From: Geobacter sp. FeAm09
GTDB lineage: Bacteria > Desulfobacterota > Desulfuromonadia > Geobacterales > Pseudopelobacteraceae
DNA: 64,000 nt
Direction: 5' to 3'
Assembly (NCBI RefSeq): GCF_008330225.1
Contig: NZ_CP042466.1
Span: forward strand, 372,001-436,000
Shown: piece after piece, positions 8,225 through 63,278 of the stretch
Numbering within the stretch: position 1 is the stretch's first letter
Layout: each line of letters opens with the position of its first letter
Notes under the pieces: generated by a model
Database searches by the model: none
What the model was told of the DNA's origin: nothing
The model's input: only the letters and a program-made list of their open reading frames with translations
Made by a program: the position numbers and the translations under genes

Positions 8225-8489
8225 AACACTCTTGTCAGCCATTCTCGGATAACCGGTCCGGGGCTTAGTGGCCGAAGCCGACATCAGGATACTGTGGATA
8301 AACCGATAGCCATTACTCTGCCCCATAACGTCTGCATGATGTTTGCTGTTGAAGCTATAAGGGATGATCAGAAGGACTTTGAGCATCTATCACCATATGG
8401 GAGGGGCAATAAAAAGAAAGGAGGTGCAAGAAAAAGAGACGTGCAGGGTTTTGTAGTTAAATATTACTAAAGAAGGGATGGGTGAAACG

Positions 8490-10786: not shown

Positions 10787-10822
10787 ACTTAACAGAAATA
10801 ATTGAGACTGGAGGCAAAACAA

Positions 10823-18073: not shown

Positions 18074-19336
18074 ATGAACAATGATTCACAAAGGTGGGTG
18101 TCGCTGATCGCTTGTATGATCGCGAGTATGTGTGCCGGGTTTGCATACGCCTGGAGCGTTTTCATGAAACCGCTGATCACCATGTTTCACTGGTCGCCGG
18201 CCGATGTTTCCCTCTCGTTTACCCTGATCATGTCGACGGCAGCCTCGACGGCAATCTTCGCGGGCAAGGCCCTGGAGTATGTCACGCCTCGCCAGCTGCT
18301 ACTCTTCGGCGGCGTGCTGTTCGGGGCCTCCATCGCGTCTCTCGGGTACATTCAATCCTTGAGCCAGCTCTACATCTGTGCCGTTCTGGCCGGCGTCGGG
18401 CTGGGAACGGTATACCCCGGTGCCACCATGACCAACACGGTGCGCTTCTTTCCCGACAAACGCGGGATGGCCTCCGGCCTGCTGACGGCCGGCTATGGTT
18501 CCGGCCCCATTGTCTGGGCGCCGGTATCCGCTATCTTGATAAACCAATACGGCATCCTTTCTGCGCTGAAAATACTGGGAGTCGTCTTTCTTGTGATCAT
18601 TAGCGTAATGTCTCGCCTGCTGAAAATCGCTCCCGAAGGCTACTGTCCTACGGGTTGGACACCCCCTGTCACGAGCGGTCAGGCCTCGGCCTCGGAAAAC
18701 AAGAACTGGAAGGCGATGATGCAGACCCCGACCTTCTATGTGCTCGCCTGCATCTTCATCCTCGGGACGACCTCCGGGATGATGGCGGTCGGGCACGCCT
18801 CCCCGATCGTGCAGGAGATACTGAAGGTTACCCCCCAGGGCGCGAGCGTTCTGGTCGGCTACCTGGCGGTGGGCATGGTCGTCGGCAAGGTCTTCTGGGG
18901 AGTGGTATCGGACAAGATCGGCCGCTATCCGGTGTTTGTCGTCCTGAACCTGCTGGCCGGAGGCGCCATGGTCGGCATGGCAACCATCACCACCTACATC
19001 CCGTTCGCCATCGCCATCACGGTGACGGGCCTTTGCTACGGCGGTTTTCTCTCCCTGATGGCCCCTGTTACCGCCGACGCCTTTGGCCCCAAATACCTGG
19101 GCATCAACTTCGGGATCATGTTCCTGACCATCGCCATCGCAGCCTATGTGGGGCCGCTGTTGGCGTCGGTGGTCAAACAGGCGAATCATGGTGATTACAC
19201 CAAGGCCTTTATTATCGGCGCAGTAATCAACCTGGCGGGTCTGCTCCTGGTCGGCGGCTTCATGCTGCTGCGGAAAAAGAGCGTTCCGGACGAAAAGATA
19301 GCAACGGCATGCGCAGAATCTTCGGAGAGTGTTTAG
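18074..19336 (+). CDS. MFS transporter, oxalate/formate antiporter (OFA) family
   Basis: The 420-residue carrier has 12 helices. Family features are the N-terminal W-x4-CMIASMCAGFAYAWSVF segment, FFPDKRGMASGLLTAGYGSG in helices 4-5, and the cytoplasmic central loop (PEGYCPTGW), a signature of OFA proteins. Members exchange or import small carboxylates, including oxalate, formate and lactate. It is the first gene of the P4 operon and is followed after 51 nt by a molybdoenzyme, so it may import that enzyme's substrate or export its product. GGAGGT precedes the ATG. Confidence 0.87.
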   Translation: MNNDSQRWVSLIACMIASMCAGFAYAWSVFMKPLITMFHWSPADVSLSFTLIMSTAASTAIFAGKALEYVTPRQLLLFGGVLFGASIASLGYIQSLSQLYICAVLAGVGLGTVYPGATMTNTVRFFPDKRGMASGLLTAGYGSGPIVWAPVSAILINQYGILSALKILGVVFLVIISVMSRLLKIAPEGYCPTGWTPPVTSGQASASENKNWKAMMQTPTFYVLACIFILGTTSGMMAVGHASPIVQEILKVTPQGASVLVGYLAVGMVVGKVFWGVVSDKIGRYPVFVVLNLLAGGAMVGMATITTYIPFAIAITVTGLCYGGFLSLMAPVTADAFGPKYLGINFGIMFLTIAIAAYVGPLLASVVKQANHGDYTKAFIIGAVINLAGLLLVGGFMLLRKKSVPDEKIATACAESSESV

Positions 19337-19387: not shown

Positions 19388-21628
19388 ATGAGTAAAAAAA
19401 TCGATTTGGAACAAGAGGGTGTGGAAGTAAAGAAGTCGGCCTGTTACTTCTGCCACCAGAACTGCGGCGTGCTGGCCTACGTCAAGGACGGCAAGGTGCT
19501 TGCGATCGAGGGCGATCCCGATTTCCCCACCAACCAGGGCGGCCTGTGCTGCCGGGGGAACATCGCCCTGCAGCACCTGAACCACCCGGAGCGGGTGAAC
19601 TATCCGCTCAAGCGCGTCGGTAAGCGTGGTGAGGGAAAATGGGAGCAGATCCCCTGGGACCAGGCAATCCAGGAGATCGCCGCCAAGCTGAACCAGATCA
19701 AGGGGGAGTTCGGGGCGGAAGCCGTGGCCACTGCCGGCGGGACGCAACGCACCGATGACTGGGCGCGTCGGCGTTTCATGAACCTGTTCGGCAGCCCGAA
19801 CGGTTTCCATAACTCCCACCTGTGCTGGATTCCGACCTTTATGGTGGAAACGGCCATCTACGGCTGGTGCCCGTTCGAGCTGGACATGGGCACGAGCCGC
19901 TGCCTGATCCTCTGGGGACAGAACCCCGGCGCCGCCGGTATGCCGGAGATGCACCACATAACCGAATTCCAGTCCAAGGGGATGAAGGTTATCGTCATCG
20001 ACCCGCGCTACAGCGAAACGGCCGCCAAGGCCGACCTCTGGCTGCCGCTCCGTCCCGGTTCCGACCTGGCCCTGGCCCTGGCCTGGATCAACGTCATCAT
20101 TTTCGAAGGCCTGTACGACCAGGAATTCGTGGCCAACTGCTGCGAAGGCTTCGGCGAGTTGGCCGACCATGTGGAGCAATTCACGCCGGAATGGGCAGCG
20201 CCCCTGACCTGGCTGACGCCGGAGCAGATCCGGGCCGGCGCCTACATGTATGCCATGAACAAGCCCGGCAATATCCAATGGGGCACCTCCGTGGACCAGA
20301 TCGGCAAGCCCGCCGGCTCCACCATGCATGCCCGGGCGCTCCTGCGCGCCATCACCGGCAACCTGGACGCCCCCGGCTCTGACCTTCTGACCGGTCCCAG
20401 CCCCGACTTCATCACCGATGAGGAGATGGAAGCCAACGACCAGTTGCCCGAGGCCCAGAAAGCCAAGCAGATCGGCTCCGACCGTTACAAGCTGGTCACC
20501 TGGCCCGGCTATACCCGCATTGCCGAAGAGACCAAAAAGGTGTGGGGCAAGGCGCCGACGGCCGAATGGATGTGCGAGGCCCATCCGCCATCAGTATTCC
20601 GGTCGATCCTGAACAAGGAGCCCTACCAGGTCAAGGCCATGCTGGTCTCCGCCACCAACCCGATCAACTCCTACGGCGAAACCAAGCTGGTACTGGATGC
20701 GTTGCGGGCCGTGGATTTCATGGTCACCTGCGACTACTGGATGACGCCGACCGCCGCACTCTCCGACTACGTGCTGCCGATCGCCGGAGCCCTGGAGCGG
20801 CCGACCATCACCAGCAGCTACGGCTGCTCCGACTTCCTGCTCGCTTCGCAACGCGCCATCCAGCCGATGTACGAGCGCCGCAACGACTACAACTTCTGGC
20901 GCGATCTCGGCATCGCCACCGGCCAGAGGGACCAGTGGCCCTGGGAAACCGTGGAGGATGCGTACTACCACCGCATCGCCCCCCTGGGATATGACGTCAG
21001 CACCTACGACGAATTTGTCGAGTTCTACCGTTTCCATTTTCCGGAGCGGGAGTACTTCAAGTACCAGCGGCAGGGATTCGCCACGCCTTCCGGCAAGGTC
21101 GAGCTCTATTCTTCCGTGCTCAAGGACCTGGGCTATCCGCCGTTACCCCCCTATATCGGACCTTCGGAGAACGAGGTTGACGACCCCGAACTGGCCAAGG
21201 AGTTTCCGCTCGTCCTGACGACCGGCGGCGGCTTCATGCCCTATCACCACTCCGAGCACTTCCAGATCAAAGAGGTGCGCTTCCTGCGCCATGAGCCCTA
21301 CATGGACATCAACCCGGCAACGGCTGCCGAGCTGTCCATCAAGGATGGCGACTGGGTCTGGATCGAGACCAAGCGCGGCCGCATCAAGCAAAAGGCCAAC
21401 CTGACCCAGGGGATACACCCGCGCGTCGTGTACACCCAGCGTGGCTGGTGGTACCCGGAGCGGGACATGCGCGATCCGGTACTGGGCGGCTGCCTGGAAT
21501 CGAATACCAACGTGCTGACCAGCACCGCCGATGAACATTGCGACCCCTACAGCGGTTCATGGGCAAACCGTGGCTTGCTCTGCAAGGTTTACAAAGTAAA
21601 TGCTTCCGATTTGAAGGAGGGTAAATAG
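19388..21628 (+). CDS. Molybdopterin oxidoreductase catalytic subunit, acetylene hydratase-like
   Basis: The 746-residue bis-MGD enzyme has a complete [4Fe-4S] motif, C19-x2-C22-x3-C26-x27-C54. C146 in NSHLCWIP aligns with the cysteine that ligates tungsten in Pelobacter acetylene hydratase. Pterin-binding segments are LWGQNPG, VIDPRYSETA and, near the end, TQRGWWYPERD. There is no Tat signal, so a cytoplasmic face is expected although an NrfD anchor follows. The operon order (catalytic, four-cluster Fe-S, NrfD) is that of quinol-linked DMSO-reductase-type complexes, so a respiratory reductase is more likely than a hydratase. Substrate unknown. Confidence 0.85.
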   Translation: MSKKIDLEQEGVEVKKSACYFCHQNCGVLAYVKDGKVLAIEGDPDFPTNQGGLCCRGNIALQHLNHPERVNYPLKRVGKRGEGKWEQIPWDQAIQEIAAKLNQIKGEFGAEAVATAGGTQRTDDWARRRFMNLFGSPNGFHNSHLCWIPTFMVETAIYGWCPFELDMGTSRCLILWGQNPGAAGMPEMHHITEFQSKGMKVIVIDPRYSETAAKADLWLPLRPGSDLALALAWINVIIFEGLYDQEFVANCCEGFGELADHVEQFTPEWAAPLTWLTPEQIRAGAYMYAMNKPGNIQWGTSVDQIGKPAGSTMHARALLRAITGNLDAPGSDLLTGPSPDFITDEEMEANDQLPEAQKAKQIGSDRYKLVTWPGYTRIAEETKKVWGKAPTAEWMCEAHPPSVFRSILNKEPYQVKAMLVSATNPINSYGETKLVLDALRAVDFMVTCDYWMTPTAALSDYVLPIAGALERPTITSSYGCSDFLLASQRAIQPMYERRNDYNFWRDLGIATGQRDQWPWETVEDAYYHRIAPLGYDVSTYDEFVEFYRFHFPEREYFKYQRQGFATPSGKVELYSSVLKDLGYPPLPPYIGPSENEVDDPELAKEFPLVLTTGGGFMPYHHSEHFQIKEVRFLRHEPYMDINPATAAELSIKDGDWVWIETKRGRIKQKANLTQGIHPRVVYTQRGWWYPERDMRDPVLGGCLESNTNVLTSTADEHCDPYSGSWANRGLLCKVYKVNASDLKEGK

Positions 21629-22192
21629 ATGGCACGTTACGCAATGGTTCTGGATACACGGCGTTGCATCGGCTGCCATTCATGTACAGTTGCTTGCAAG
21701 GTACATAATGAGCTCCCGGTGGACATGATCTATAACCCGGTCACGACCGTTGGTCCGACAGGCGTTTACCCCAACCTCCACCAGACGCACATCCCGCTGT
21801 TGTGCATGCACTGCGCCAACGCCCCGTGCGTTGACGCCTGCCCGACGCGCGCCTCGCAGAAGCGTGACGACGGGATCGTTTTCGTCGAAGACCCCAAGTG
21901 TGTCGGCTGTCTGGCCTGCGTCATGGCCTGTCCCTATGGGGCGCGCATCCCCAATCACGAAACCGGGGCGGTACAGAAATGCGACTTCTGCAAGGATCGC
22001 GTCGATGTGGGCAAGAAACCGCACTGCGTCAACACCTGCCACCAGAAGGCCCGCGTCTTCGGTGATCTGGATGACGAAACCAGCGAGGTATACCGGCTGG
22101 TCAACAGCGAGAATGCGGTTCGCCTCCTGGGTGAACTCAATACGGAACCGTACACATTTTACATCTATGGATTGGAGGTGAAGAATCCATGA
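21629..22192 (+). CDS. Four-cluster [4Fe-4S] electron transfer subunit (DmsB/PsrB type)
   Basis: The 187-residue subunit has four cysteine groups typical of DMSO reductase beta subunits: CIGCHSCTVAC (about 14-24), CMHCANAPCVDACP (about 56-69), CVGCLACVMACP (about 91-102), and CDFCKDRV followed by C-x3-C (about 116-136). It starts directly after the stop of the catalytic gene, with GGAGG upstream, and its stop overlaps the NrfD start by 4 nt (ATGA). It carries electrons between the membrane subunit and the molybdoenzyme. Confidence 0.93.
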   Translation: MARYAMVLDTRRCIGCHSCTVACKVHNELPVDMIYNPVTTVGPTGVYPNLHQTHIPLLCMHCANAPCVDACPTRASQKRDDGIVFVEDPKCVGCLACVMACPYGARIPNHETGAVQKCDFCKDRVDVGKKPHCVNTCHQKARVFGDLDDETSEVYRLVNSENAVRLLGELNTEPYTFYIYGLEVKNP

Positions 22193-23133
22193 AAACCAAA
22201 CATCAAGGCTGGGGTTGGATGTTGGCGGTAGACTTCTTCTTTGCGGGCATGGGCGGCGCAATGCTCGTACTCACCGGCATCATAGAGCTGTTTGTGGGAG
22301 AGGGAAGGACCTCCTTGGTCGGTAACGTGATGGGACCGGCTTTCATGGGCATCGGGTGCTGTTTCCTGGTGTTCGAACTGGGACGTCCCTTCCAGTCGTG
22401 GCGCGTGTTCATGAATCCCAAGGCGATCCTGACGGCCGGCGCCTGGATCATGTCCATAGCGATGGTCGTCGGCCTTGCCTACGCCTCGTTTGGCCTCAAT
22501 CCCGCATGGTTCGGCGTGGAGAAGCTCTTCTGGCAGGATATGTTCCTGGTGCGCAAGCTCCTGGCGGTCATAGGCGTATTGACCGGGCTGGTCGTGGCCA
22601 CCTATCCCGGCGTTTTGCTGGCCCGGCATAAGGGGCGTCCCTTCTGGGTAGGGCCGGGCATGATCACGCTCTTCCTCCTCTCTTCCCTCGTTACCGGCGT
22701 ATCGGCGCACTTTTTGAGTGCCCTGGTCATGCGTCCGACCGTCGTACCGGGCATCTGGGGCAATCTGCCGGCGTTTGCCGCCGGGCTCTTGTTCTTCCAG
22801 TTGGTCATATGGTTCGGGTACCTCTGGGTCAAACGCACCGGCGCCACCGAAGCCGAGGCGGTGAGCGCCCAGAGATGGATCAGCGGCGACATCTCCGGAA
22901 GCTTTTTCTTCGTCTTCCTGTTCATCGGGACCCTGGTGCCGCTGGTGTTGTTCCTGCAGCCGGCGCCGCTTCTCCAGGGTGTCGGCGCGTTGCTCGTCCT
23001 GTTGGGCGGCGTCACCATGCGCTGCCTCGTGGTCCGCGCCGGCCAGGACCGGACATGGCTTCCCGGCGAGGTGAAGTACCGGGGGCGCCTGCCCCTGGGC
23101 GACGAGGCGTTTCTCAAAGCCTGGAACAAGTAA
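22189..23133 (+). CDS. NrfD/PsrC-family membrane quinol dehydrogenase subunit
   Basis: The 314-residue integral membrane protein has eight or nine predicted helices, beginning MLAVDFFFAGMGGAMLVLTG. It is of the PsrC/NrfD type, which oxidises or reduces menaquinone and anchors the Fe-S subunit. Translational overlap with the preceding gene shows a tight three-subunit complex. A GC hairpin (CCGGTCCGACG...CGTCGGACCGG) follows at 23142-23179. Confidence 0.92.
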   Translation: MKTKHQGWGWMLAVDFFFAGMGGAMLVLTGIIELFVGEGRTSLVGNVMGPAFMGIGCCFLVFELGRPFQSWRVFMNPKAILTAGAWIMSIAMVVGLAYASFGLNPAWFGVEKLFWQDMFLVRKLLAVIGVLTGLVVATYPGVLLARHKGRPFWVGPGMITLFLLSSLVTGVSAHFLSALVMRPTVVPGIWGNLPAFAAGLLFFQLVIWFGYLWVKRTGATEAEAVSAQRWISGDISGSFFFVFLFIGTLVPLVLFLQPAPLLQGVGALLVLLGGVTMRCLVVRAGQDRTWLPGEVKYRGRLPLGDEAFLKAWNK

Positions 23134-25746: not shown

Positions 25747-27069
25747 ATGAGTGTTTCTGAAACAAAACCGGATGCCGCACTGCTGAGTACTACGCACAGC
25801 GTCTGCCCGGTCTGTCTGGGGGTCGTTGGTGCCCGGATCGTTGCCGAAGGCAAAACCGTCTATATGAACAAGGAGTGCCCCGAACACGGGAGGTTCAAAA
25901 CCTACCTCTGGCCGGATGTGGAACATTACACCTGGATGAACTCCTTCAAGTTCCCCTTTGTCAAGCCGGAACAGCCTGTGCCGGCATCGCAGGGATGCCC
26001 CCAGGATTGCGGATTGTGCACGTCGCATCTGCGGCATCCGACGCTGGTGGAGATCGAGCTCACGCAGCGGTGCAACCTGCGCTGCCCGGTCTGTTTCATG
26101 GCGGCCGAAGCGGTGCAGGCTGCGGCGCAGCCGGGGCCGGACCTGGCTGCGCTGGAAGCCATGTACCGGGCGATCATGGAAAAAACCGGCCCATCCACCA
26201 GCATTCAGCTTACCGGCGGTGAACCGACCATTCGCAAGGATTTGCCGGATATCGTCCGTCTGGGCAAGCGTGTCGGTTTCGAAGCCATCGAAGTCAATAC
26301 CAACGGCGTGGTGATCGCCCAGCACCCGGAGTTTGTGACGGAGTTGCTCGAAGCGGGAATAAGCGGCATCTACATGCAGTTCGACGGCCTGACCTCCGAG
26401 GTGTATGACAAAATCCGCGGCGGAGACCTGCTGAAGATCAAGCTGCAGGCCATCGAAAACTGCCGAAAAGCCGGCGTCCAGGTCGTTCTTGCTATGACGA
26501 TCATCGAGGGCATCAACCATGACCAGCTTGGCGCGGTGCTGCAGTTCGCTCTGCAAAACCGCGATGTGATTGCCGGCATTGCCTATCAGCCGGCCTTTGG
26601 CTCCGGGCGCTTCGACGTCTCCAACGAACGGCGGCTTACCATGGGGGATGTGGCCAACCTTCTGGCTGAACAGAGCGACGGCATTCTGACTCCCTACGAC
26701 CTGTGGCCCTTGGGCTGTTCCCATCCGACCTGCGATTCTGCAACCTATATCGTTGAAGACCGGGGGCGGTTCAGGCCGCTTACCGGCATGATCACCACCA
26801 AGGAGTACGTGGAGCATTTCGATCCTGCCAGCCCCCAGGGGTCCGTGCTCCCGGATATCGCCGACAAGATGTTTCCCGAACTTGGTCCGGGCCTGTCCAT
26901 TGTCGTGATGAGCTACATGGATGCCATGAACATGGACCTCAAGCGTCTCAAGGAGTGCAGCATGACCGTGGCCGGGCCGAATGGGGAACTGATCCCGTTC
27001 TGCTCATACCAGTTGACGAATATCCATGGCAAGAAGAGGTCGGAGATCGGCTCCGGGAACGCGGCATGA
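25747..27069 (+). CDS. Radical SAM enzyme with N-terminal zinc-ribbon-like region (MJ0619/tetraether-synthase-like)
   Basis: The 440-residue protein has an N-terminal Cys region (CPVC-L, CPEHG, then CPQDCGLC near 83-90) and the radical SAM core CNLRCPVC (about 105-112), with the LTGGEPTIRKDL SAM-binding motif. More cysteines (GCSHPTC, and C in IPFCSYQ) follow. This architecture matches the MJ0619-type group, which includes tetraether lipid synthases and proposed pterin methylases. Its stop overlaps the next molybdoenzyme start by 4 nt, a sign of coupled translation. It may modify the pterin, the enzyme or a lipid; only the family is certain. TAGGAG lies upstream. Confidence 0.82.
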   Translation: MSVSETKPDAALLSTTHSVCPVCLGVVGARIVAEGKTVYMNKECPEHGRFKTYLWPDVEHYTWMNSFKFPFVKPEQPVPASQGCPQDCGLCTSHLRHPTLVEIELTQRCNLRCPVCFMAAEAVQAAAQPGPDLAALEAMYRAIMEKTGPSTSIQLTGGEPTIRKDLPDIVRLGKRVGFEAIEVNTNGVVIAQHPEFVTELLEAGISGIYMQFDGLTSEVYDKIRGGDLLKIKLQAIENCRKAGVQVVLAMTIIEGINHDQLGAVLQFALQNRDVIAGIAYQPAFGSGRFDVSNERRLTMGDVANLLAEQSDGILTPYDLWPLGCSHPTCDSATYIVEDRGRFRPLTGMITTKEYVEHFDPASPQGSVLPDIADKMFPELGPGLSIVVMSYMDAMNMDLKRLKECSMTVAGPNGELIPFCSYQLTNIHGKKRSEIGSGNAA

Positions 27070-29240
27070 AAGAGACGGTAAAGACAAATTGCCGTTTTTG
27101 CGGCTATCAATGTGGACTGATGGCAACGGTTGACGATGGCCGGGTCGTGGCGGTGGAGCCCGACCCGACCCAATACCCCGGCGATGCGACGATCCAGCGC
27201 GGCTGCCACCGGTGGCGTCTCGTGCCCGAGTTCCTGGATCATCCCGAGCGGGTCAACCATCCCCTGAAGCGGGTGGGGGAGCGGGGCAGTGGGAAGTGGG
27301 AGCGCATCACCTGGGACCAGGCCCTGGACGAGATCGCGGGAAAACTGGCCCTGCTCAAGGAACAATTTGGTCCCGAGACCCTGGCGAGCTGCATCGGCGG
27401 CCCTCATGCGGTCTTCTGGCCCCTGCACCGGTTCATGACCCTGTTCGGCAGCCCCAACAACGTGGGCATCGGCCAGATTTGCTGGAATCCGGGCACATTG
27501 ATCAATTCCGTGACCTATGGCTGGACTATCGACAATGAACTCGACCCGCAATTCACCAAGTGCGCCATACTCTGGGGCGTCAATCAGGCCGAGTCGGACA
27601 ACTCGTTGCTCTGGCACCAGATAATGAAGTTCAGCCGTACGGGGAAGCCCCTGGTCGTGATCGACCCGCGGCGCACCCGGACCGCCGAGCGGGCTACCCA
27701 TTGGCTGGCGGTGCGTCCCGGTACGGATGCCGTTCTCGCCATGGGCTTCATCAACGTCATCATAACCGAGCGGCTCTACAATACGGAGTTTGTGGACGCC
27801 TGGTGCCACGGCTTCGACCGTTTGGCGAACCAGGCGGCTCCGTACACCCCGCAGCATGTGGAAGCCATTACCGGAATCAAGGCGGAGGTTGTTGCGGAAG
27901 TTGCCCGCCTTTATGCCGGGAACACGCCGTCGTCCTTGTTCCCCGGGCGTGGTGTGGACCAGATCGGGCGAAACAGCGTCCCGACACACCACGCCTTTGC
28001 GGCATTGCGGGCAATTACCGGGAACCTTGATGCAAAAGGGGCATCGCACCTGACGGAAATGCCGGATTTCATCCCGGAGCTCGACCTTGAGTTGAGCGAG
28101 CAGTTCCCGGAATCGTTGCGCGCCAAACAGCTTGGCGACCTGAAGCTGCAATCCTACGCGACCTACGACCGCATCCGGCAGTTGACCCTGAAACACGGCA
28201 AGCGCCTCCCCATGCGCTACCTGACCTCGGCCCAGCCGAATCTCGTCTGGCGGGCCATGCTGACGGGAAAACCGTATCCCATACGCTCGCTCATCGTCAT
28301 GGCGACCAACCCGCTTCTGACGCAGGCTGACGCCGGTCTGCTGTATGAAGCGCTGAAAAGCCTGGATCTTCTCGTGGTCCTGGAACTGTTCCAGACCCCC
28401 ACATCGATGCTGGCGGACTATGTGCTGCCCAGTGCCGGGGCGCTGGAACGGCCGCTGTTCGAAACAAAGGCCGGCACGTCCAACCTGATCTATGGCGGCG
28501 CAAAAGCCGTGGCGCCGTACTACGAGCGTCGTTCCGACTTCGATTTCTGGAGCGCCCTGGGTCGCCGGCTCGGCCAGGAAGCCCATTGGCCGTGGGAAAG
28601 CTTCGAAGAAAGCCTGGAGGCAACGCTGGCTCCCACGGGGGTAAGTTGGGACTTATTCTGTCAGTATGGCCTGTATAACCTGCCGGAAGAATACGGCAAG
28701 TACGAGCAAATTGATTTCCAGAGCGGCAAGCCTGCCGGATTTGCCACTACCACCGGCAAGGTTGAGCTGTACAATGAACTGCTTGCGGAGATCGGCGGGG
28801 ACCCCCTGCCGTCCCCCAAGCCGCTTGAACAACCGGGGGAGGATTTTCCGCTGCACCTTATCACCGGGGCGCGGTATCAGCCGTTTTACGCCTCCAGCTT
28901 CCGCCAGTTCGGCTCGCTGAGACCGCTTCATCCCGAACCGTGGGCCGAAGTCAGCAGCACTACCGCAACGAAACTGGGGCTTGAGGACGGTTGCCGGGTA
29001 TGGGTCGAGACCGGGCGGGGCAAGGCGCAATTTGTCCTGAAAGTTTCCCAGATGTGCGATAATGTGGTAAGTGTGGAATACGGCTGGTGGTACCCTGAAC
29101 TGCCCGCCTCGGAGCCATCCCTCGGCGGCCTGTGGCTTGCCAATGCCAACGTGCTGACCAATGCCGATTATGAAGCCTCGGACCCGCTGGTCGGCACGGC
29201 GACCTACAACGGCATCCCCTGCCGCGTGCTGGAGATATGA
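27066..29240 (+). CDS. Molybdopterin oxidoreductase catalytic subunit, acetylene hydratase-like (second copy)
   Basis: The 724-residue bis-MGD enzyme starts at the ATG overlapping the radical SAM stop; a longer frame upstream lies inside that gene and is not used. The [4Fe-4S] motif is C9-x2-C12-x3-C16-x30-C47. C139 in GQICWNPG matches the metal-ligand cysteine position. It is similar to the 19.4-kb protein throughout (HPLKRVGERGSGKWERITWDQALDEI, VIDPRRTRTAE, YGWWYPE). No Fe-S or NrfD subunit gene follows, so it may share subunits with the 19.4-kb complex, use a soluble donor, or catalyse a non-redox reaction. Confidence 0.85.
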   Translation: MKETVKTNCRFCGYQCGLMATVDDGRVVAVEPDPTQYPGDATIQRGCHRWRLVPEFLDHPERVNHPLKRVGERGSGKWERITWDQALDEIAGKLALLKEQFGPETLASCIGGPHAVFWPLHRFMTLFGSPNNVGIGQICWNPGTLINSVTYGWTIDNELDPQFTKCAILWGVNQAESDNSLLWHQIMKFSRTGKPLVVIDPRRTRTAERATHWLAVRPGTDAVLAMGFINVIITERLYNTEFVDAWCHGFDRLANQAAPYTPQHVEAITGIKAEVVAEVARLYAGNTPSSLFPGRGVDQIGRNSVPTHHAFAALRAITGNLDAKGASHLTEMPDFIPELDLELSEQFPESLRAKQLGDLKLQSYATYDRIRQLTLKHGKRLPMRYLTSAQPNLVWRAMLTGKPYPIRSLIVMATNPLLTQADAGLLYEALKSLDLLVVLELFQTPTSMLADYVLPSAGALERPLFETKAGTSNLIYGGAKAVAPYYERRSDFDFWSALGRRLGQEAHWPWESFEESLEATLAPTGVSWDLFCQYGLYNLPEEYGKYEQIDFQSGKPAGFATTTGKVELYNELLAEIGGDPLPSPKPLEQPGEDFPLHLITGARYQPFYASSFRQFGSLRPLHPEPWAEVSSTTATKLGLEDGCRVWVETGRGKAQFVLKVSQMCDNVVSVEYGWWYPELPASEPSLGGLWLANANVLTNADYEASDPLVGTATYNGIPCRVLEI

Positions 29241-29952: not shown

Positions 29953-29982
29953 CGCCGCACACTCCAAACACAGGTGAGGACC

Positions 29983-30465
29983 ATGAATTTCAACCATTTC
30001 GATGATCGCGGCAATGCCATTATGGTGGATGTGAGCGGCAAGCAGGAAACCTTACGGACGGCTACGGCCGCGGCGGATGTACACATGTCCGCCAAGGTGC
30101 TTGACGCCATTCTGAACAGCACGGTCGCCAAGGGGGATGTGCTGGGGGTTGCACGCCTGGCCGGCATCATGGCGGCAAAACGGACGCCGGACCTGATCCC
30201 GCTTTCCCATCCGCTCTCCCTCCATTCCGTGGCGGTGGAGTTCGCGCCGGACAGCACCGCGGGCAAGATCGAGGTGCAGTGCACCGTCCGCGCCTTCGAG
30301 CGCACCGGCGTCGAAATGGAAGCCATGACCGGCGCCGCCCTGGCCGCCCTGACCATCTATGACATGTGCAAAGGGACCGACAAGTCCATCAGCATTGGCG
30401 ACATACGGCTTCTGTACAAGGAAGGCGGCAAAAGCGGCGTGTACCGCCGGGAGGAGGGGCAATGA
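29983..30465 (+). CDS. moaC: Cyclic pyranopterin monophosphate synthase MoaC
   Basis: The 160-residue enzyme converts the MoaA product (3',8-cyclo-7,8-dihydro-GTP) to cyclic pyranopterin monophosphate, an early Moco step. Conserved features are MVDVSGK near the start, LIPLSHPL, and GVEMEAMTGA in the active-site region, with D and K residues (YDMCKGTDK) near the end. It starts at ATG after AGGTGAGG; a GTG three codons earlier is less likely. It overlaps mog by 4 nt. Confidence 0.96.
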   Translation: MNFNHFDDRGNAIMVDVSGKQETLRTATAAADVHMSAKVLDAILNSTVAKGDVLGVARLAGIMAAKRTPDLIPLSHPLSLHSVAVEFAPDSTAGKIEVQCTVRAFERTGVEMEAMTGAALAALTIYDMCKGTDKSISIGDIRLLYKEGGKSGVYRREEGQ

Positions 30466-30959
30466 GAGCGGCCATCCTGACCTTGAGCGACAAGGGATCG
30501 CGGGGCGAACGCGTTGACGAGAGCGGGCCGGCCCTGGCCTCATGGCTGGCGGAGCGTGGGGTGACCACGGTGCAGACCGAGGTCATCCCCGACGATCTGG
30601 AGCAAATCGTGGCCGTACTGAGTGCATGGGCCGATGCCGATGCGGCCGACCTGATCCTGACCACGGGGGGCACCGGCGTTTCGCCGCGGGACGTAACCCC
30701 GGAAGCAACCATGAAGGTGGTTGAGCGCCTGATTCCGGGCATCGGTGAACTGATGCGCCTGAAGAGCCTGGAAAAGACCCCCATGGCATCGTTGTCGCGG
30801 GCTCTGGCCGGGATTCGTGGTCAGACGCTGATCATCAACCTGCCGGGGAGCCCCAAGGGAGCACGGGAGAATCTGGAGGCGGTCTGGCCGGTTATCGGCC
30901 ATGCCGTGGAAAAGATTCGTGGCGACGAGAGCGATTGCGGGGGAAAATTTTCCCACTGA
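30462..30959 (+). CDS. mog: Molybdopterin adenylyltransferase (Mog/MoaB type)
   Basis: The 165-residue protein has the MogA/MoaB/CinA fold signature TTGGTGVSPRDVTPEAT and NLPGSPKGARENLE. It adenylates molybdopterin before MoeA inserts metal. It starts in the moaC stop (ATGA overlap) with GGAGGAGG upstream, so MoaC and Mog are translationally coupled. The short intergenic gap to moaC and the preceding molybdoenzyme place Moco supply with enzyme synthesis. Confidence 0.94.
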   Translation: MRAAILTLSDKGSRGERVDESGPALASWLAERGVTTVQTEVIPDDLEQIVAVLSAWADADAADLILTTGGTGVSPRDVTPEATMKVVERLIPGIGELMRLKSLEKTPMASLSRALAGIRGQTLIINLPGSPKGARENLEAVWPVIGHAVEKIRGDESDCGGKFSH

Positions 30960-31569: not shown

Positions 31570-33227
31570 CTATTGCACCGTATCCTGGGCCTCGTATTCC
31601 TTGAGTTTGCGGTAGAGCGTGGCCAGGCCGATGTTCAGCTCGCTGGCGGCCTGGGCCTTGTTGTCCCCCACCGCGTGGAGCACCCCCAGGATGTAGTCCC
31701 GCTCGATCTCCTCCAGGGGACGGATGCAGCCCGACACCACCGGCTTCAGCAGCATGGCCCGCAACTCGCACGGCAGGTCGCTGATGTCGATCTGGCTGTC
31801 CTGGCACATGGCCACGGCGTACTCCACGGCGTTCTGCAACTCCCGCACATTGCCCGGCCAGTCGTAGCGGAGCAGTTGGTCGGCGGCGTTGGGGGTGAAC
31901 CCGGTGATGGGCCGCCCCTGGCCGTGGGCGATCTTGGTAAGGAAGAAACGGGCCAGGGGGAGGATGTCCTCGTTGCGCTCCCGCAGGGGGGGGACCTGCA
32001 GCTCGATCACCCGCAGGCGGTAGTACAGGTCCTGGCGGAAGCGGCCGGCGGTGATCTCGTCCGCCAGGTTGCGGTTGGTGGCCGCCACCACCCGCACGTT
32101 GACGGGGCGGGACTTGTTCTCGCCCACGCGCCGCACCTCGTGCTCCTGCAGGGCGCGCAGCAGCTTGACCTGCATGCCGGGGGACACCTCGCCGATCTCG
32201 TCCAGGAACAGGGTCCCCCGGCGGCCGCCTCGAAGAGCCCGACCCGGTCCTTGTCCGCGCCGGTGAAGGAGCCCTTGGCGTGGCCGAACAGCTCGCTCTC
32301 CAGGAGGGTCTCGGTGAGGGCGCCGCAGTTGACGGCCACGAAGGGGCGGGCGGCCCGGGCGGACTGGTCGTGGATGAAGTGGGCCATGAGCTCCTTGCCC
32401 ACGCCGCTCTCCCCGGTGATCATCACCGCGGAATCGACCTTGGCCACGCGCCAGGCGATATCGACGGCATTGCGCATGGCCTGGCTGCGGGTCATGATGA
32501 GGGGCGGGGTATCGACCCCTTCCAGGAAGGCCAACTGCTTCTGCCGTTTTTTCAGTTTGCTCTCCGTACAGCGGAGCTTGTCGCTCAACTCCTTGAATAA
32601 TGCCGGGAAAGACTCCATTCGATAATAAACCAGGTGGGGCTCGATCTCCGGTCCCCAATTCTCCTTGAAGCGGGCCGTGACGTGGCAGGTGGCGTCCCCC
32701 TTGCCGCAACACTGGTCTTCAATGAAAATAACATCCCGCCCCTCGACGTAGGATGAAAAACCGCTGGCAAAGGCCACCTCCGTCCAGCAGACCGGTTCAT
32801 CCGCTTTTCCGACATGCAACAGGTGCTGCTCTGCTTCGTAGCTGTCATCCCATGAAGAGGATATGAGCGGTTCGTCCCCGTCCCCGTCGGTGCGCGTATT
32901 GTGATGGACCCCGATCAGGCCGGTCAGCGAATGGAGCTTCGAACCGGCGTATCCTTTCGAATCCTTCCATACCTCCGGCATGTTGAGGCGGATGTTCATG
33001 GCCGTGCGCCAGCCGTTGGCATAGCCGAAGCGGGTGAGGATGCTCCGCGCGGCGAACGTCCCCAGGGTATCGATGAGTTCCTTGCGAAGGAGTCCCATGG
33101 CGAACGCATTGAGCAGGATGGCCCTTTCTCCCAACAGCTCGATCACGCCACCTTCGGGATTGAAGGAAAGCAGCTCCCGCAAGTCCAAATCTCCAAGTCT
33201 CATCACATGCCCCCTCTGGGTTGCCAA
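31570..33227 (-). pseudogene. XylR/DmpR-type sigma-54 activator with V4R aromatic-sensing domain, one-base frameshift
   Basis: The intact product would be about 552 residues. Residues 1-120 form the XylR_N domain and about 130-190 the V4R domain with cysteines in EDQCCGKGDATCHV, the region that binds zinc and aromatic effectors in DmpR/PoxR. The AAA+ domain has Walker A GESGVGKE (about 271) and the sigma-54 contact loop GSFTGA (about 317, instead of GAFTGA). A Fis-type HTH ends the protein (AASELNIGLATLYRKL). The frame breaks at a five-C run on the plus strand (32215-32219); one more base restores [11 protein letters not shown]. It lies divergent to porin promoter P5 and is the best candidate regulator of P1-P8. 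Confidence 0.85.
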
Positions 33228-33690: not shown

Positions 33691-34887
33691 ATGAAGAGAG
33701 GGATTGTTGGAGTGGTAGCATGTGCGGCGTCGGTGGCGCTGTCTGTACCCGCGTTGGCGGTGGACTTCAGTGGTTACGGTGCGGTCCGGGTTGGTACGTA
33801 CTGGACGCAGAACCAGTATTACAGTGCCACTGCGGGAGCGAGCTATGGCGCTCGGAGGAGCGACAGCGACTTCAGCCTCGACCTGATGGGCGACAGCCTT
33901 GTGGGCGTCCGCGTGAAGGAAGGGGACTTTTCGGCGGTGGCTGAAATGGGCGCTTTCAACCCGAAGGCCGCGAGCTCCGGTCCTGAAGTTCGGTTGCTGT
34001 TTGGTGAATGGGATTTCGGGAAGGGCAAGATTCGCGTGGGTAAAGCGCCCAGCCCGTACGTGTACCGCACGCAGATGACGTGGGACAGCGACGGCGGTAT
34101 GAACGCCTACGGCTCGCTGTGGGACGGCCGTTACGCCCAGATCAAACTGACCATGAACAACGGCTTTTACTTCACCCTGATGCAGCCGCGTGCCGGTGCC
34201 GGCAGCGTCTACACCAGCAACGCCGCTGGTGCCGGCAGCAGCCTTGCGGCCTTCTCCGAGACAGCCAACACCTACGCCACGACGTACACGAACTACAACA
34301 CCATCATGCCGAAGATCGTGACGGGCTACGAAGGCAAACTGTCGAACTGGACCTACGGCGGCGGCGTATCGTACAACCTGTACAACCTTGAGCGTGTCAC
34401 GGCTGCCAACGCCACTCCGATCAAGACGGACATCCACTCGTACCTGGTCTTCTTCCACGGCAAGGTTGACGTAGCACCGGTTGAATTCAGCTACAACCTT
34501 TTCACGGGCCGGAACCTGGGCGACCTGATGAGCTCTGCGGCGAGCGCCTATGTTGCGACCTCTGCGACGTTCAGCACGACGGGCACGGCCTCCTACTATG
34601 ACGTAACGAACGACGCGAACGCGTACACGTACGGTGGCTGGGGCCAGATCGGCTACACGGTGAACCCGAAGCTGAAGATCTATGCGGGCGCGTCCTACGT
34701 ATCTGACGACAACCGCAAGACCCGTGCGGACGAGCGTTTTGCCGCTTTCGTGAACGCGCATTACCAGGTGAGCAAGAACTTCAAGATCGTGCCTGAGATT
34801 GGCTACATGAACGACATGACGAACACGCTTGGCAACAAGGAGCCGCGGACGCTGGAAGCCGGCGCCAAGTGGGAAATGAGCTTCTAG
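33691..34887 (+). CDS. Outer membrane porin, copy 1
   Basis: The 398-residue precursor has a signal peptide (cleavage after ALA, near residue 23) and a beta-barrel pattern of alternating aromatic and polar strands ending in a C-terminal Phe (KWEMSF), the usual signal for outer membrane insertion. It lacks cysteine in the mature part and has glycine/tyrosine-rich strands and Thr/Ser loops. It is identical at protein level to the gene at 44277-45473, with only synonymous DNA differences. A conserved hairpin (ATTGGC...GCCAAT) lies in the leader, then AAGGAGACGAGA. P5 drives it. It probably admits the substrate of the regulon. Confidence 0.85.
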   Translation: MKRGIVGVVACAASVALSVPALAVDFSGYGAVRVGTYWTQNQYYSATAGASYGARRSDSDFSLDLMGDSLVGVRVKEGDFSAVAEMGAFNPKAASSGPEVRLLFGEWDFGKGKIRVGKAPSPYVYRTQMTWDSDGGMNAYGSLWDGRYAQIKLTMNNGFYFTLMQPRAGAGSVYTSNAAGAGSSLAAFSETANTYATTYTNYNTIMPKIVTGYEGKLSNWTYGGGVSYNLYNLERVTAANATPIKTDIHSYLVFFHGKVDVAPVEFSYNLFTGRNLGDLMSSAASAYVATSATFSTTGTASYYDVTNDANAYTYGGWGQIGYTVNPKLKIYAGASYVSDDNRKTRADERFAAFVNAHYQVSKNFKIVPEIGYMNDMTNTLGNKEPRTLEAGAKWEMSF

Positions 34888-35614: not shown

Positions 35615-35673
35615 AAACAGCGAATGAGGGCTGTACCATTTCACGCAAGCGCCATCAGGTGCCAGGGGTAACG

Positions 35674-36186
35674 ATGATCGCACATGCCATTTCATTCGTC
35701 GCAAAATCGGGGACCGGCAAGACCACCCTGCTGGAGAAGGTGATTGCCGAACTCAAGAGCCGGGGCTACCGCATCGGCGTCATCAAGCATGATGCCCACC
35801 AGTTCGACATCGACCATCCGGGCAAGGACAGCCACCGCCTCACCCAGGCCGGCGCCGACACCATGCTGATCACCTCCCCGGAGAAGCTGGCCATGATCAA
35901 GAAGCACGAGGCGTCGCCCCCCATCGAAGAGTTGATCGCCGCCTACTTCGGCGATGTGGATCTGGTCCTGACCGAAGGTTTCAAGAAGAGCAGCCTCCCC
36001 AAGATCGAGGTCCATCGCCGGGAGCGGAGCGCAACCCTGCTCTGCCGGGGCGAGGAGCATGACCCCACCCTGCTGGCGGTGGCCAGTGACGAACCCCTGC
36101 AGGTGGACGTGCCGGTGCTGGATCTCAACAACCCGTCCCAGATAGCCGATTTCGTGGCAGAACGGATCATCCATGCAACTGACTGA
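35674..36186 (+). CDS. mobB: Molybdopterin-guanine dinucleotide biosynthesis adaptor MobB
   Basis: The 170-residue P-loop protein has Walker A SGTGKTT (about 13-19), KHDAHQFDIDHPGKDSHR and DLVLTEGFKKSSLPKIE, all typical of MobB. It is a GTP-binding accessory to MobA in MGD synthesis. The ATG follows AGGGG, and a GTG five codons upstream is an alternative. Its 3' end overlaps the moaA start by 14 nt. Confidence 0.94.
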   Translation: MIAHAISFVAKSGTGKTTLLEKVIAELKSRGYRIGVIKHDAHQFDIDHPGKDSHRLTQAGADTMLITSPEKLAMIKKHEASPPIEELIAAYFGDVDLVLTEGFKKSSLPKIEVHRRERSATLLCRGEEHDPTLLAVASDEPLQVDVPVLDLNNPSQIADFVAERIIHATD

Positions 36187-37153
36187 CTCCCTCGGGAGAA
36201 CCATAAACTATCTGCGTCTTTCGGTGACCGACCGCTGCAACATGCGTTGTTCCTACTGCATGCCGGCCGAAGGTGTCGCCCGGAAGTGCCATGACGACGT
36301 CCTGCGCTACGAGGAGTTGCACCTGATCGCCGAAACCGCGGTGGGCCTGGGGATCGAGAAGATCCGCATCACCGGCGGTGAGCCGCTGGTGCGTGCCGGC
36401 ATCGTGGAATTCCTCTCCCGCCTCTCGAACATCGACGGCCTGCGGCACCTGGCGCTGACCACCAACGGGCTGCTGCTGGACAAGATGGCCGCAGATCTGT
36501 ATGAGGCGGGGGTGCAGCGTCTGAACGTCAGCCTGGACTCTCTGAAGAGCGAGACCTTTGCCGCCATCACGCGGGGCGGTGACCTGGACCGGGTCCTGGC
36601 CGGGCTGGATGCGGCGGAGAAGGCCGGTTTCCCGCCGCCCAAGATCAACATGGTGGTCATGCGCGGGGTGAACGACGGGGAGATCCTGGACTTCGCCGAA
36701 CTGACCCGGAGCCGCGGCAACTCGGTGCGTTTCATCGAATACATGCCGGTGATCAAGGAAGAGGGATGGCAGCGCTACTGCATCTCCGGCGAGGAGATCC
36801 TGGAGCGCATCGCGGCCCGGCATACGCTGGAACATGTGTGCAAGGGTGCCTTTGCGGGTCCGTCGCGGGACTTCCGCATCCAGGGAGCCCGGGGCACGCT
36901 GGGGATCATCACCGCCGTTTCGGGTCACTTCTGCGGTGAGTGCAACCGCATCCGGGTGACCTCCACCGGCCAGGGCAAGGGGTGCCTGTTCTCCGATGAA
37001 CAGGTCAACCTGCTTCCCTTCCTGCGGCCGCCGAGCCCGGCAAACCTGGCCCGCGCCCTGCGGGGTATCGTCATGGCCAAGCCGCAGGGGCACCACATCA
37101 CCAACAACGGGTATGAACACCAGAATTTCACGATGGCACAGATTGGAGGATAG
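36173..37153 (+). CDS. moaA: GTP 3',8-cyclase MoaA
   Basis: The 326-residue radical SAM enzyme carries out the first step of Moco synthesis. The N-terminal cluster motif is CNMRCSYC (about 23-30), the SAM motif is ITGGEPLVR, and the C-terminal second cluster binds through CGECNRIR plus a later Cys (KGC). It ends in the -GG tail required for catalysis (QIGG). It overlaps mobB, and the MOSC gene starts 1 nt after its stop. Confidence 0.97.
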   Translation: MQLTDSLGRTINYLRLSVTDRCNMRCSYCMPAEGVARKCHDDVLRYEELHLIAETAVGLGIEKIRITGGEPLVRAGIVEFLSRLSNIDGLRHLALTTNGLLLDKMAADLYEAGVQRLNVSLDSLKSETFAAITRGGDLDRVLAGLDAAEKAGFPPPKINMVVMRGVNDGEILDFAELTRSRGNSVRFIEYMPVIKEEGWQRYCISGEEILERIAARHTLEHVCKGAFAGPSRDFRIQGARGTLGIITAVSGHFCGECNRIRVTSTGQGKGCLFSDEQVNLLPFLRPPSPANLARALRGIVMAKPQGHHITNNGYEHQNFTMAQIGG

Positions 37154-41557: not shown

Positions 41558-41881
41558 TTATATTGCTGTCGCTTCTGCTTTTGCCGCAGCTGCCTTCTTT
41601 GGTCAAGCAATCGTGTCTGAAGAAAAGTACAGACGGTTTATTAGTAATGATTTATTTTATTGATATACTGTCTACTGGCCGGGAGCATCGGGAAAGCGGA
41701 AGCTGCCAGGGCATACGGAAGGAGCGGGGCAAGGTTTGTGATGGTTTTACCACTGGCTGCAGGTGCTTTGCCGGCATGTGGCCGCACTGTATGCAGTCGT
41801 AACCCGTCAGTTTTGCAGCAGCATAACCAGAGTGAGGAGGGCAGTTTGATGGTTGAAGACAACTCAGAGGAGGTAAGAGGA

Positions 41882-43567: not shown

Positions 43568-43649
43568 TCCGGAAGCATCCTGAAAGATCGGGAACGGCTG
43601 CTGCCGTTCCCGGCACCACTAAAGTCACCTATTTACGAGAGGAGAAAAG

Positions 43650-63239: not shown

Positions 63240-63278
63240 CGGCGGTCTCTTCCCGGTTCTTTCCCCGCAGGGCGCTGT

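Follow-up and report, generated by a model that had tools for sequence, protein, structure and literature searches.

A radical SAM gene that overlaps an acetylene-hydratase-like molybdoenzyme gene in Geobacter sp. FeAm09 belongs to a co-inherited gene set, apparently an unstudied pathway

MJ0619 carried a pterin methylase annotation before it was shown to be a tetraether synthase, GDGT-MAS, which joins membrane lipids of archaea to one another; the structural study of this protein does not corroborate the pterin methylase label (PMC9433317). Membrane-spanning lipids of bacteria, the proposed products of Tes homologues, serve as climate proxies (PMC8941075). For a further family, TrsS, mention in the literature searched was limited to one table row. 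Acetylene hydratase of Pelobacter acetylenicus (2E7Z) is the best PDB match, at nearly full length, of the two molybdoenzymes described below as MopB1 and MopB2. Titles and the openings of abstracts on DUF169/DUF2064, modified molybdopterin, arsenosugar, acetylene hydratase and DVU1551/DVU1559 gave no description of the gene set reported here.

The DNA analysed is a stretch of 64,000 nt from Geobacter sp. FeAm09 (termed the window). It carries a forward-strand gene at positions 25747–27069 for a radical SAM protein of 440 amino acids (rSAM, P0001), followed on the same strand, at positions 27066–29240, by a gene for an acetylene-hydratase-like Mo/W-bis-MGD-type enzyme of 724 amino acids (MopB2, P0002). 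The MopB2 open reading frame is read from the ATG at 27066, and the two genes share the sequence ATGA (27066–27069). The 4-nt overlap of a radical SAM gene with a bis-MGD-type gene, from which the original prediction started, is thus present.

The radical SAM protein compared with GDGT-MAS, Tes and TrsS

In a family scan, rSAM matches the Radical_SAM domain and a zinc ribbon of the HMPTM type (PF23545). The protein belongs to the radical SAM superfamily by its PF04055 score (82 bits), by its fold and by a CX3CX2C motif in which C109, C113 and C116 are invariant. A PDB sequence search gives 7tol/7tom (GDGT-MAS, i.e. MJ0619) as the best match, with E = 5.5e-81. In a fold comparison the rSAM model aligns with GDGT-MAS over 393 residues (Z 42.6), and the next row is MoaA with Z 20.3. 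Sequence and fold therefore agree with the earlier description of the protein as MJ0619-like. That description also spoke of a group containing tetraether synthases and proposed pterin methylases; the relation to MJ0619 stands, but both labels belong to one protein, MJ0619. A pterin methylase by descent from MJ0619 is disfavoured, since the MJ0619 structural study gives no corroboration for it (PMC9433317).

The similarity to GDGT-MAS/Tes (NF045702, 7TOL/7TOM) covers the whole fold, the rubredoxin site, the residues of the N- and C-terminal auxiliary clusters and the CX3CX2C motif. The rubredoxin site (C20 C23 C44 H47), the residues C84 C88 C91 H94 and the residues C329 M388 C404 C419 are invariant in 45 of 45 aligned sequences; C329, C404 and C419 are putative cluster ligands. 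The alignments were made of chosen members, one with 37 + 8 sequences and another with 23. Met388 is the equivalent of the labile Met439 of GDGT-MAS. As judged from its sequence, rSAM would have the features that characterize Tes/GDGT-MAS, i.e. a rubredoxin site and two auxiliary clusters with a labile Met. There are differences as well: Val408 of rSAM stands where GDGT-MAS has Tyr459, and the stretch before the Met439 region, ~67 residues in GDGT-MAS, is ~26 residues in rSAM, about 40 shorter, as taken from alignment ends beside a weak segment (4 bits) and not from coordinates. The shorter stretch concerns the second hydrophobic lipid pocket of GDGT-MAS.

With the Tes model NF045702, rSAM scores 347.8 bits, below the cut-off of 450, and seven other members of its group score 297–347. 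The best-scoring family model is that of TrsS (NF045646), with 395.5 bits against a cut-off of 490; seven other members of the group give 334–399 bits, and three TrsS controls 639–674. A tree was made from chosen members, 38 of the rSAM group and 14 TrsS, with a single Tes row. All 14 TrsS sequences fall on one side of a branch with support 100/99, and the 38 of the rSAM group on one side of another (98/99). By cut-off and tree, rSAM is neither a plain Tes member nor a TrsS member. The original prediction left room for membership in the tetraether synthase clade, and no clear membership was found. The protein is placed in a group of its own beside TrsS and GDGT-MAS/Tes. With MoaA as outgroup the root lands inside the rSAM group, a position made unreliable by the outgroup end branch of 10; the group may thus not be a strict clade.

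Molybdoenzymes, nucleotidyltransferases and other genes of the set

The genes of the set are split in the window between 8–31 kb and 60–64 kb. MopB2 displays the Fe4S4, Molybdopterin and dinucleotide-binding domains of molybdopterin oxidoreductases (family scan). A second acetylene-hydratase-like Mo/W enzyme, MopB1 (19388–21628, forward), differs from acetylene hydratase in adjoining genes for a 4Fe-4S dicluster electron-transfer subunit (FeS; 21629–22192, forward) and an NrfD-type membrane subunit (22189–23133, forward). In alignments, both MopB1 and MopB2 have a Cys at the position which we take to be that of the metal ligand; at what is presumably the catalytic Asp13 of acetylene hydratase, MopB2 has Gly and MopB1 has His. 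Because of this Gly, MopB2 is not considered to be an acetylene hydratase proper. An MFS transporter gene upstream of MopB1 (18074–19336, forward) is present in some relatives, and a third Mo/W enzyme, MopB3 (8478–10748, forward), with a small Fe-S protein beside it (FeS17; 10802–11158, forward), adjoins the set in some relatives. Forward-strand cofactor genes in the window are MoaC- and MogA-like genes (29974–30959; named by eye, without a family-library scan) and mobB with moaA (35659–37153).

A DUF2064/CofC-like nucleotidyltransferase is encoded twice, by NTP4a (13042–13872, forward) and by NTP4b (63279–64000, reverse), which extends past the window end to ~64106. NTP4 belongs to DUF2064 (PF09837; 60.5 bits, gathering score 25.8) and falls outside TIGR04282 (63.5 bits, curated cut-off 134). 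The top fold match of the NTP4 model is 3cgx (Z 25.8), a putative nucleotide-diphospho-sugar transferase, to which it is closer than to the CofC/FbiD-type enzymes that follow at Z 20–21. The latter guanylyltransferases (7P97, and Rv2983 and MM2497, which we take to be of the same type) resemble NTP4 in fold and in the KTR and GGD motifs, but sequence identity is 16%–20%, and other F420 genes were not recognised among the recurrent neighbours of the set. MobA is not among the best 50 fold rows for the NTP4 model, an absence that excludes nothing.

The remaining genes are on the reverse strand: a DUF169 + ferredoxin protein (62269–63265, with a one-base frame shift near 63035; its intact stretch 62272–63006 served as search query), a GNAT-type protein with a Cys-rich C-terminus (61736–62425), a PhnP-like metallo-beta-lactamase-fold hydrolase (MBL; 60945–61844) and, adjoining the MBL gene, a flavin-reductase-like protein (60305–60877). 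The DUF169 and GNAT names come from relatives in locus L041 and the MBL name from one in L038; these relatives were family-scanned, and the window genes match them or genes of the same genomes. MoaC, MogA, LysE, MOSC, the sigma-54 gene c14 and the neighbours in L156 were named by eye. Open reading frames that resemble the flavin-reductase-like gene, again by eye, lie between DUF169 and GNAT in L041 and L062.

Co-occurrence and gene neighbourhood

At the cut-offs used, the rSAM group, MopB2, NTP4 (E of 1e-20 or less), DUF169-ferredoxin and MBL have an identical distribution among 195 genomes of the class, being found in 13 of them; directly below the rSAM group the score drops from 388 to 289 bits. 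The 13 genomes all belong to one class and should not be read as so many independent events. GNAT is present in 12 of the 13, two of them by short weak matches, and was located in the thirteenth (G184) by tblastn. MopB1 is present in 11. A search of G084 and G184 gave no MopB1, and a different MopB-FeS stands there instead; MopB1 is therefore disfavoured as an obligate partner. Genomes with isolated members of the set were not seen among the 195 at these cut-offs, except that G044, G052, G076 and G160 have weak, partial matches to NTP4 (E = 6e-9 to 9e-11), which were left uncounted. None of the set members was found in three other genomes of the window's genus. In a second sample, 296 genomes of the phylum of Gordonibacter, this rSAM is present in 2, both with NTP4; the other 19 matching genomes show the radical SAM part only. 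The cut-offs were set after the scores had been seen, and the candidates scored per genome numbered at most 8 (rSAM), 5 (MopB1, MopB2), 12 (NTP4), 14 (DUF169) and 12 (MBL), with 3 in the second sample, so that absences are softer than presences. The set is also found in Bacillota, Chloroflexota and Coriobacteriia, and its members occur in named isolates, e.g. Desulfosporosinus, Adlercreutzia and Ellagibacter (80 of 129 relatives were kept for the host survey). Since the genes of the set cross phyla together, linkage could keep them joined for a while.

The neighbourhood survey used 92 rSAM loci, of which 89 are distinct; L049, L056 and L060 were dropped, being on the same contigs as L034, L039 and L040. 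Within 11 kb, MopB2 is present in 69 of the 89, NTP4 in 69, and MopB1 or MopB2 in 76; where at least 5 kb is available on both sides, MopB1 or MopB2 is found in 46 of 47. Genomes were searched for 14 loci without MopB2 in view: nine have MopB2 at 59% or more (several partial) and five do not, one of the five having N runs at the locus and the other four being MAGs. The divergence of rSAM parallels that of MopB2 over 69 loci (Mantel r = 0.92), a value that includes shared ancestry and many Coriobacteriia. In 21 of the 89 loci (the window is outside the 89), the rSAM gene immediately precedes MopB2 in the same orientation, with less than 400 bases between matches, and gene order varies elsewhere, e.g. 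MopB2-NTP4-rSAM in Coriobacteriia. Three of 13 inspected loci of the rSAM group within the class (the window, G082 and G141) show the exact overlap of 4 nt. The pairing is therefore not peculiar to one genome, as the original prediction required, though the exact overlap is local.

The recurrent neighbours of the rSAM group are Mo/W enzymes, which sets the group apart from GDGT-MAS/Tes. Inspected TrsS loci also carry a molybdoenzyme and a nucleotidyltransferase, but the TrsS locus L044 has a xanthine-oxidase-family aldehyde oxidoreductase (NF045668) and a DVU_1553 ligase. The recurrent neighbours of the rSAM group differ from the NF045668/DVU_155x genes (model search for these families in part of the loci), and MopB1 or MopB2 matches were found in none of five TrsS-type control loci.

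A possible pathway and the alternatives

The set, which is inherited together with two molybdenum-type enzymes as one block, looks like an unstudied pathway. It is read as a dedicated one that probably makes a small molecule or a cofactor for Mo/W enzymes of the acetylene hydratase type. The term pathway is used by guilt by association, from the observed shared presence, neighbourhood, parallel divergence, fold and conservation of ligand residues. The preferred reading, with a probability of about 0.4, is that rSAM works, by GDGT-MAS-like chemistry, within a conserved pathway of several genes that makes or converts a compound for MopB2. The set would consist of MBL, MopB1, FeS, NrfD, a CCG protein, rSAM, MopB2, the nucleotidyltransferase, DUF169/ferredoxin and GNAT, often with the flavin reductase. 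In rSAM an adenosyl radical may abstract a hydrogen atom from an unactivated sp3 carbon, the resulting radical of the substrate may be held on the C-terminal [4Fe-4S] cluster with its labile Met388, and a C-C or C-S bond would then form. A small phosphorylated or nucleotide-activated intermediate would be a likelier substrate than a lipid pair. Together with the CofC-like nucleotidyltransferase, MBL, GNAT and DUF169-ferredoxin, rSAM would build or convert what MopB2 needs or acts on, while MopB1-FeS-NrfD, or the other MopB-FeS pair in G084 and G184, would tie the pathway to membrane electron transfer. The compound may be a special Mo/W cofactor, a separate coenzyme or a respiratory substrate.

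A narrower form of the proposal, in which the set makes a new coenzyme or modified Mo/W cofactor, with C-C or C-S bond formation by rSAM, nucleotide attachment by the CofC-like protein and dependent acetylene-hydratase-type enzymes in four bacterial phyla, is put forward as a doubtful one. If correct, it would give the GDGT-MAS-type radical SAM fold a small-molecule, non-lipid role, and we know of no earlier one. The co-inherited list is short (rSAM, MopB2, CofC-like nucleotidyltransferase, DUF169-ferredoxin, PhnP-like hydrolase and GNAT) and can be tested as a unit; it opens the role of acetylene-hydratase-like enzymes and of DUF2064 and DUF169 proteins to testing.

The alternative that survives best, though it is itself on the unlikely side, takes the whole set as serving the catabolism or respiration of an external substrate, e.g. 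a phenolic or an organic acid. Here rSAM would act on the substrate and, with MopB2, change its carbon skeleton, and MopB1-FeS-NrfD would exchange electrons with the quinone pool. The MopB1-FeS-NrfD and CCG electron-transfer genes are consistent with this, as are the MFS transporter gene that precedes MopB1 here and in several relatives, an XylR_N/V4R sigma-54 regulator near the window's set (a sigma-54-regulator-like gene, by eye, is present in 10 loci) and the hosts, which include many gut MAGs, as judged by record title, and many Eggerthellaceae. Acetylene-hydratase-related catechol dehydroxylases are known in the Eggerthellaceae (PMC7028382). However, a CofC-like nucleotidyltransferase and a GNAT protein are unusual in catabolism, and transporters and regulators are inconstant across loci. 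It should be noted that the regulators and the MFS transporter beside the set in some genomes suit catabolism or respiration as much as biosynthesis.

A maturation or cofactor-modification role had been proposed from the coupling of the two genes. The association with molybdoenzymes is genuine and recurs, but nothing observed shows that rSAM modifies a pterin or matures the enzyme, and the two-gene rSAM-MopB maturation pair is disfavoured because the co-inherited set is larger than rSAM and MopB2. That rSAM, with NTP4, modifies the molybdopterin cofactor or matures MopB2 is improbable. The strict co-occurrence of rSAM with MopB2 and the nucleotidyltransferase would agree with it, as would matches to moaA, moaC, mogA and mobB (10, 9, 8 and 3 of the 92 loci) and the molybdoenzyme and MocA-like nucleotidyltransferase of the TrsS locus L044. 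The TrsS-locus aldehyde oxidoreductase, however, is close to the solved 1dgj, 1sij and 1vlb, whose cofactor we take to be the ordinary cytosine dinucleotide; the NTP4 fold rows noted above are of the CofC/FbiD type; and the genome has separate MobA-like candidates. The MJ0619 pocket is hydrophobic, and the pterin methylase claim for this protein is, as stated, uncorroborated (PMC9433317).

It is most improbable that rSAM is a bacterial synthase of membrane-spanning lipids that merely stands beside molybdenum genes. The GDGT-MAS fold, the matching metal-ligand residues and the lipid products proposed for bacterial Tes homologues (PMC8941075) would suit such a function, but rSAM scores under the Tes cut-off, lies apart from Tes in the tree (with its single Tes row) and has the shorter stretch before the Met388 region. 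No lipid gene was recognised among the genes recurring around the rSAM group, unlike the surroundings of two other Tes-like genes in G048, which adjoin acyl-carrier-protein-like and dehydrogenase-like genes (by eye). As the rSAM group occurs with molybdoenzymes and without a recognised lipid gene, it would be premature, until more evidence is available, to class all bacterial relatives of Tes as lipid synthases.

An accidental association of genes that hitchhike on a mobile island of molybdenum genes, which the patchy and phylum-crossing distribution of the set would fit, is hardly credible: the set persists despite differing gene orders, and in five genomes rSAM and MopB2 lie more than 20 kb apart or on separate contigs with the other members retained.

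The gene pair within a larger unit

The radical SAM gene (rSAM) is an open reading frame at window positions 25747–27069 (+) and encodes 440 residues with Radical_SAM and HMPTM zinc ribbon domains (Pfam). As stated in the original prediction, it overlaps by 4 nt the gene of a bis-MGD-type enzyme (MopB2), which displays three molybdopterin-enzyme domains (Pfam). The MopB2 start is located at the rSAM stop codon, in ATGA at 27066–27069, and the gene ends at 29240. The window (G000:C1:372001–436000) is part of a genome present as a single contig of 4.10 Mb.

The rSAM-MopB2 pair forms the central part of a larger unit, whose members in the window are not contiguous and are spread over several blocks from 8.5 to 64.1 kb. 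The Mo/W enzyme MopB3 with its small Fe-S protein FeS17, and the nucleotidyltransferase copy NTP4a, are found at 8.5–13.9 kb; MFS-MopB1-FeS-NrfD-rSAM-MopB2, with MoaC- and MogA-like genes, at 18–31 kb (FeS and NrfD are genes next to that of the enzyme MopB1); mobB-moaA at 35.7–37.2 kb; MobA-like and moeA genes at 48.4–50.8 kb; and, on the minus strand, the second copy NTP4b, DUF169-ferredoxin, GNAT, a PhnP-like hydrolase (MBL) and flavin reductase at 60.3–64.1 kb. No match to the further set member CCG was seen in the window.

Several other loci in the window may be noted. In the DUF169-ferredoxin gene (62269–63265, −) a run of C near 63035 carries a shift of one base that breaks the frame, and the open frame at this region is longer in four family relatives (323–379 versus 307 residues); the cause may be an assembly error or decay of the gene. 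In the XylR_N/V4R sigma-54 regulator (31570–33227, −) the sigma-54 domain match ends early, at 95 of 168 positions, and seems to be continued in an overlapping open reading frame in another frame. Two porin-like genes, named by eye (33691–34887 and 44277–45473, +; 398 codons each), are identical in all 75 residues compared and are likely a recent duplication. Positions 41660–44039 (+) encode an FAD-binding reductase-like protein and, after it, a cytochrome c3-type protein; these may form an additional respiratory reductase.

Partner proteins and the possible function of the set

NTP4 is a DUF2064 protein. Its model (mean pLDDT 93.1) has as nearest fold the putative nucleotide-diphospho-sugar transferase 3cgx (Z = 25.8), and also resembles 3-phospho-D-glycerate guanylyltransferase (7p97, Z = 21.4), MM2497 (Z = 21.0) and Rv2983 (Z = 20.2). 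By analogy, this suggests that NTP4 may transfer a nucleotide to a phosphorylated acid. NTP4 is probably not the MobA of this genome; MobA-like candidates are present at 48531–49082 and elsewhere, below the family cut-off, which 12 of 13 matching control genomes likewise miss. The MBL relative scores 123 bits as GPMC-system hydrolase (cut-off 360) and 113 bits as PhnP (cut-off 272), the DUF169 relative is an uncharacterised domain joined to a ferredoxin, and the CCG relative gives a partial match to the dicluster protein family NF045663 (147 bits, cut-off 530).

The reading we favor, with a probability of about 0.4, is that the set constitutes a dedicated small-molecule pathway serving Mo/W enzymes. 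Among the open-access papers listed in literature searches, none appears, from its title and the beginning of its abstract, to describe the set. A catabolic or respiratory pathway is a tentative second choice. The most similar solved structure to both MopB1 (445 bits) and MopB2 (341 bits) is acetylene hydratase; at the position of its catalytic Asp13, MopB1 has His and MopB2 has Gly.

Direct modification of the molybdenum cofactor or enzyme is an unlikely explanation. The original prediction had proposed such a cofactor or maturation role; a molybdenum link does exist, but the proposal was too narrow as to what that link is. It had also invoked a pterin methylase precedent in the family. Pterin methylase was the original annotation of MJ0619, the tetraether synthase Tes (GDGT-MAS), but was not corroborated by the authors of the structural study, and the protein binds two lipids (PMC9433317). 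Thus the family-based pterin argument loses its basis.

Family and active site of the radical SAM protein

rSAM scores 395 bits against the NCBIfam model of TrsS (cut-off 490) and 348 bits against that of Tes (cut-off 450), and is therefore claimed by neither. Seven other members of the rSAM group show the same pattern, while three TrsS controls reach 639–674 bits on the TrsS model. A PDB sequence search finds GDGT-MAS (7tol, E-value = 5.5e-81) and then MoaA (2.1e-13). Likewise, the rSAM model (mean pLDDT 88.6, built on a 45-sequence alignment) matches 7tom with Z = 42.6 over 393 residues at 35% identity, the next protein being MoaA (Z = 20.3).

In a tree of 56 rows, one branch (support 98/99) separates the 38 rSAM-group members from all other rows, and another (100/99) does so for the 14 TrsS sequences. 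Neither group includes MJ0619 or two Tes-like proteins of G048, which are on long branches and in unsure places. Rooting on MoaA (end branch 10) puts the root among the rSAM members, which are therefore termed a group and not a proven clade. Close to the G048 genes (L156, 8108–13329, −) are others that by eye resemble acyl-carrier-protein and short-chain-dehydrogenase genes; the locus is a candidate bacterial membrane-spanning-lipid locus.

The alignment places C9, C12, C33 and H36 of GDGT-MAS at rSAM C20, C23, C44 and H47; C73, C77, C80 and H83 at C84, C88, C91 and H94; C98, C102 and C105 at C109, C113 and C116; and Met439 at M388. The ligand aligned as H83 is given in the paper as "a conserved histidine" (PMC9433317). 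None of these twelve rSAM residues varies across the 45 sequences aligned, and the same holds for C329, C404 and C419. Judged from these residues, rSAM seems to retain what is needed to activate sp3 C-H bonds with a radical-storing cluster. Tyr459 is replaced by Val408, which says little, since Tyr459 variants of GDGT-MAS retained activity (PMC9433317). The stretch that separates two matched segments, of which one scores weakly (4 bits), is about 26 residues long in rSAM and about 67 in GDGT-MAS; the shortening may remove the second lipid pocket. The substrate probably differs from that of GDGT-MAS, and a lipid role for rSAM is very improbable.

The TrsS-type control loci L044–L048 (35%–37% relatives) show no match to MopB1, MopB2, FeS or NrfD. 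Three neighbors in L044 were scanned against families. One is an aldehyde oxidoreductase of the molybdenum type (NF045668, 1659 bits), for which 1dgj and 1sij are the nearest solved structures; the other two score as DVU_1551 nucleotidyltransferase (431 bits) and DVU_1553 ligase (478 bits). The related TrsS family therefore also accompanies a molybdoenzyme, of another family. L045 and L048 were judged alike by eye, and in all three loci a xanthine-oxidase-family aldehyde oxidoreductase with a MocA-like nucleotidyltransferase forms a parallel to the present set. NCBI names TrsS a (seleno)protein family; in the TrsS-type genes of L015, L018, L019, L025 and L027 a Cys codon directly precedes the 3′ TGA, which may be read as selenocysteine.

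Distribution and co-divergence of the set

Relatives of rSAM (E ≤ 1e-30) are present in 37 of 195 class genomes, and the rSAM group (at least 42% identity and 388 bits; next match 289 bits) in 13. The identical 13 genomes (G000, G082, G033, G048, G141, G184, G084, G107, G122, G126, G140, G169 and G175) carry MopB2 (E ≤ 1e-170), NTP4 (E ≤ 1e-20; weak partial matches in four more), DUF169-ferredoxin (E ≤ 1e-12) and MBL (E ≤ 1e-40). GNAT matches occur in 12 of the 13, only short and weak ones in G126 and G084, and tblastn adds the thirteenth, G184. MopB1 is present in 11; G084 and G184 have a different MopB with an FeS gene in its place. The set members are absent from three other genomes of the window's genus (G019, G074, G166), absences being less sure than presences as few candidates were scored per genome (5 for MopB1 and MopB2). 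The co-occurrence is given without a p-value because the genomes share ancestry. rSAM and MopB2 are 21 to 66 kb apart in G107, G122, G140 and G175, and on separate contigs in G169. An accidental association is highly improbable.

Beyond the class, the best 80 of 129 relatives are from Bacillota (Peptococcaceae, Desulfosporosinus, Selenomonadales, Gracilibacteraceae), Chloroflexota and many Coriobacteriia, e.g. Gordonibacter, Adlercreutzia and Ellagibacter. With the 12 class stretches L032–L043 these give 92 loci, 89 of them distinct. Within 11 kb of rSAM in these 89, many of which are cut by contig ends, are MopB2 (69), NTP4 (69), FeS (60), DUF169 (57), NrfD (56), GNAT (56), MopB1 (47), CCG (45) and MBL (31). 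Where at least 5 kb is available on both sides, MopB1 or MopB2 is present in 46 of 47 loci (exception L076). In Coriobacteriia the genes often run MopB1-FeS-NrfD-CCG-MopB2-NTP4-rSAM-DUF169-GNAT.

Whole-genome searches of 19 genomes found MopB2 in 14 at 49% identity or more, several in part only, and did not find it in G196, G200, G204, G207 and G209. Fourteen of the 19 had been picked for a locus lacking MopB2, and nine of these have it, five not. In G204 (Gordonibacter pamelaeae) the expected MopB2 stretch holds 1,248 N. Among 296 sampled genomes of its phylum (up to three candidates scored per genome), the rSAM group is present in two, which are 84%–85% identical to the query and each also have NTP4; in the remaining 19 genomes with a match at E ≤ 1e-15 it is confined to the radical SAM part (27%–41%).

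Protein distances of rSAM correlate with those of MopB2 (r = 0.92, 69 loci), NTP4 (0.87, 69), MopB1 (0.87, 47) and DUF169 (0.77, 57), values that include shared ancestry and were reached by none of 999 permutations.
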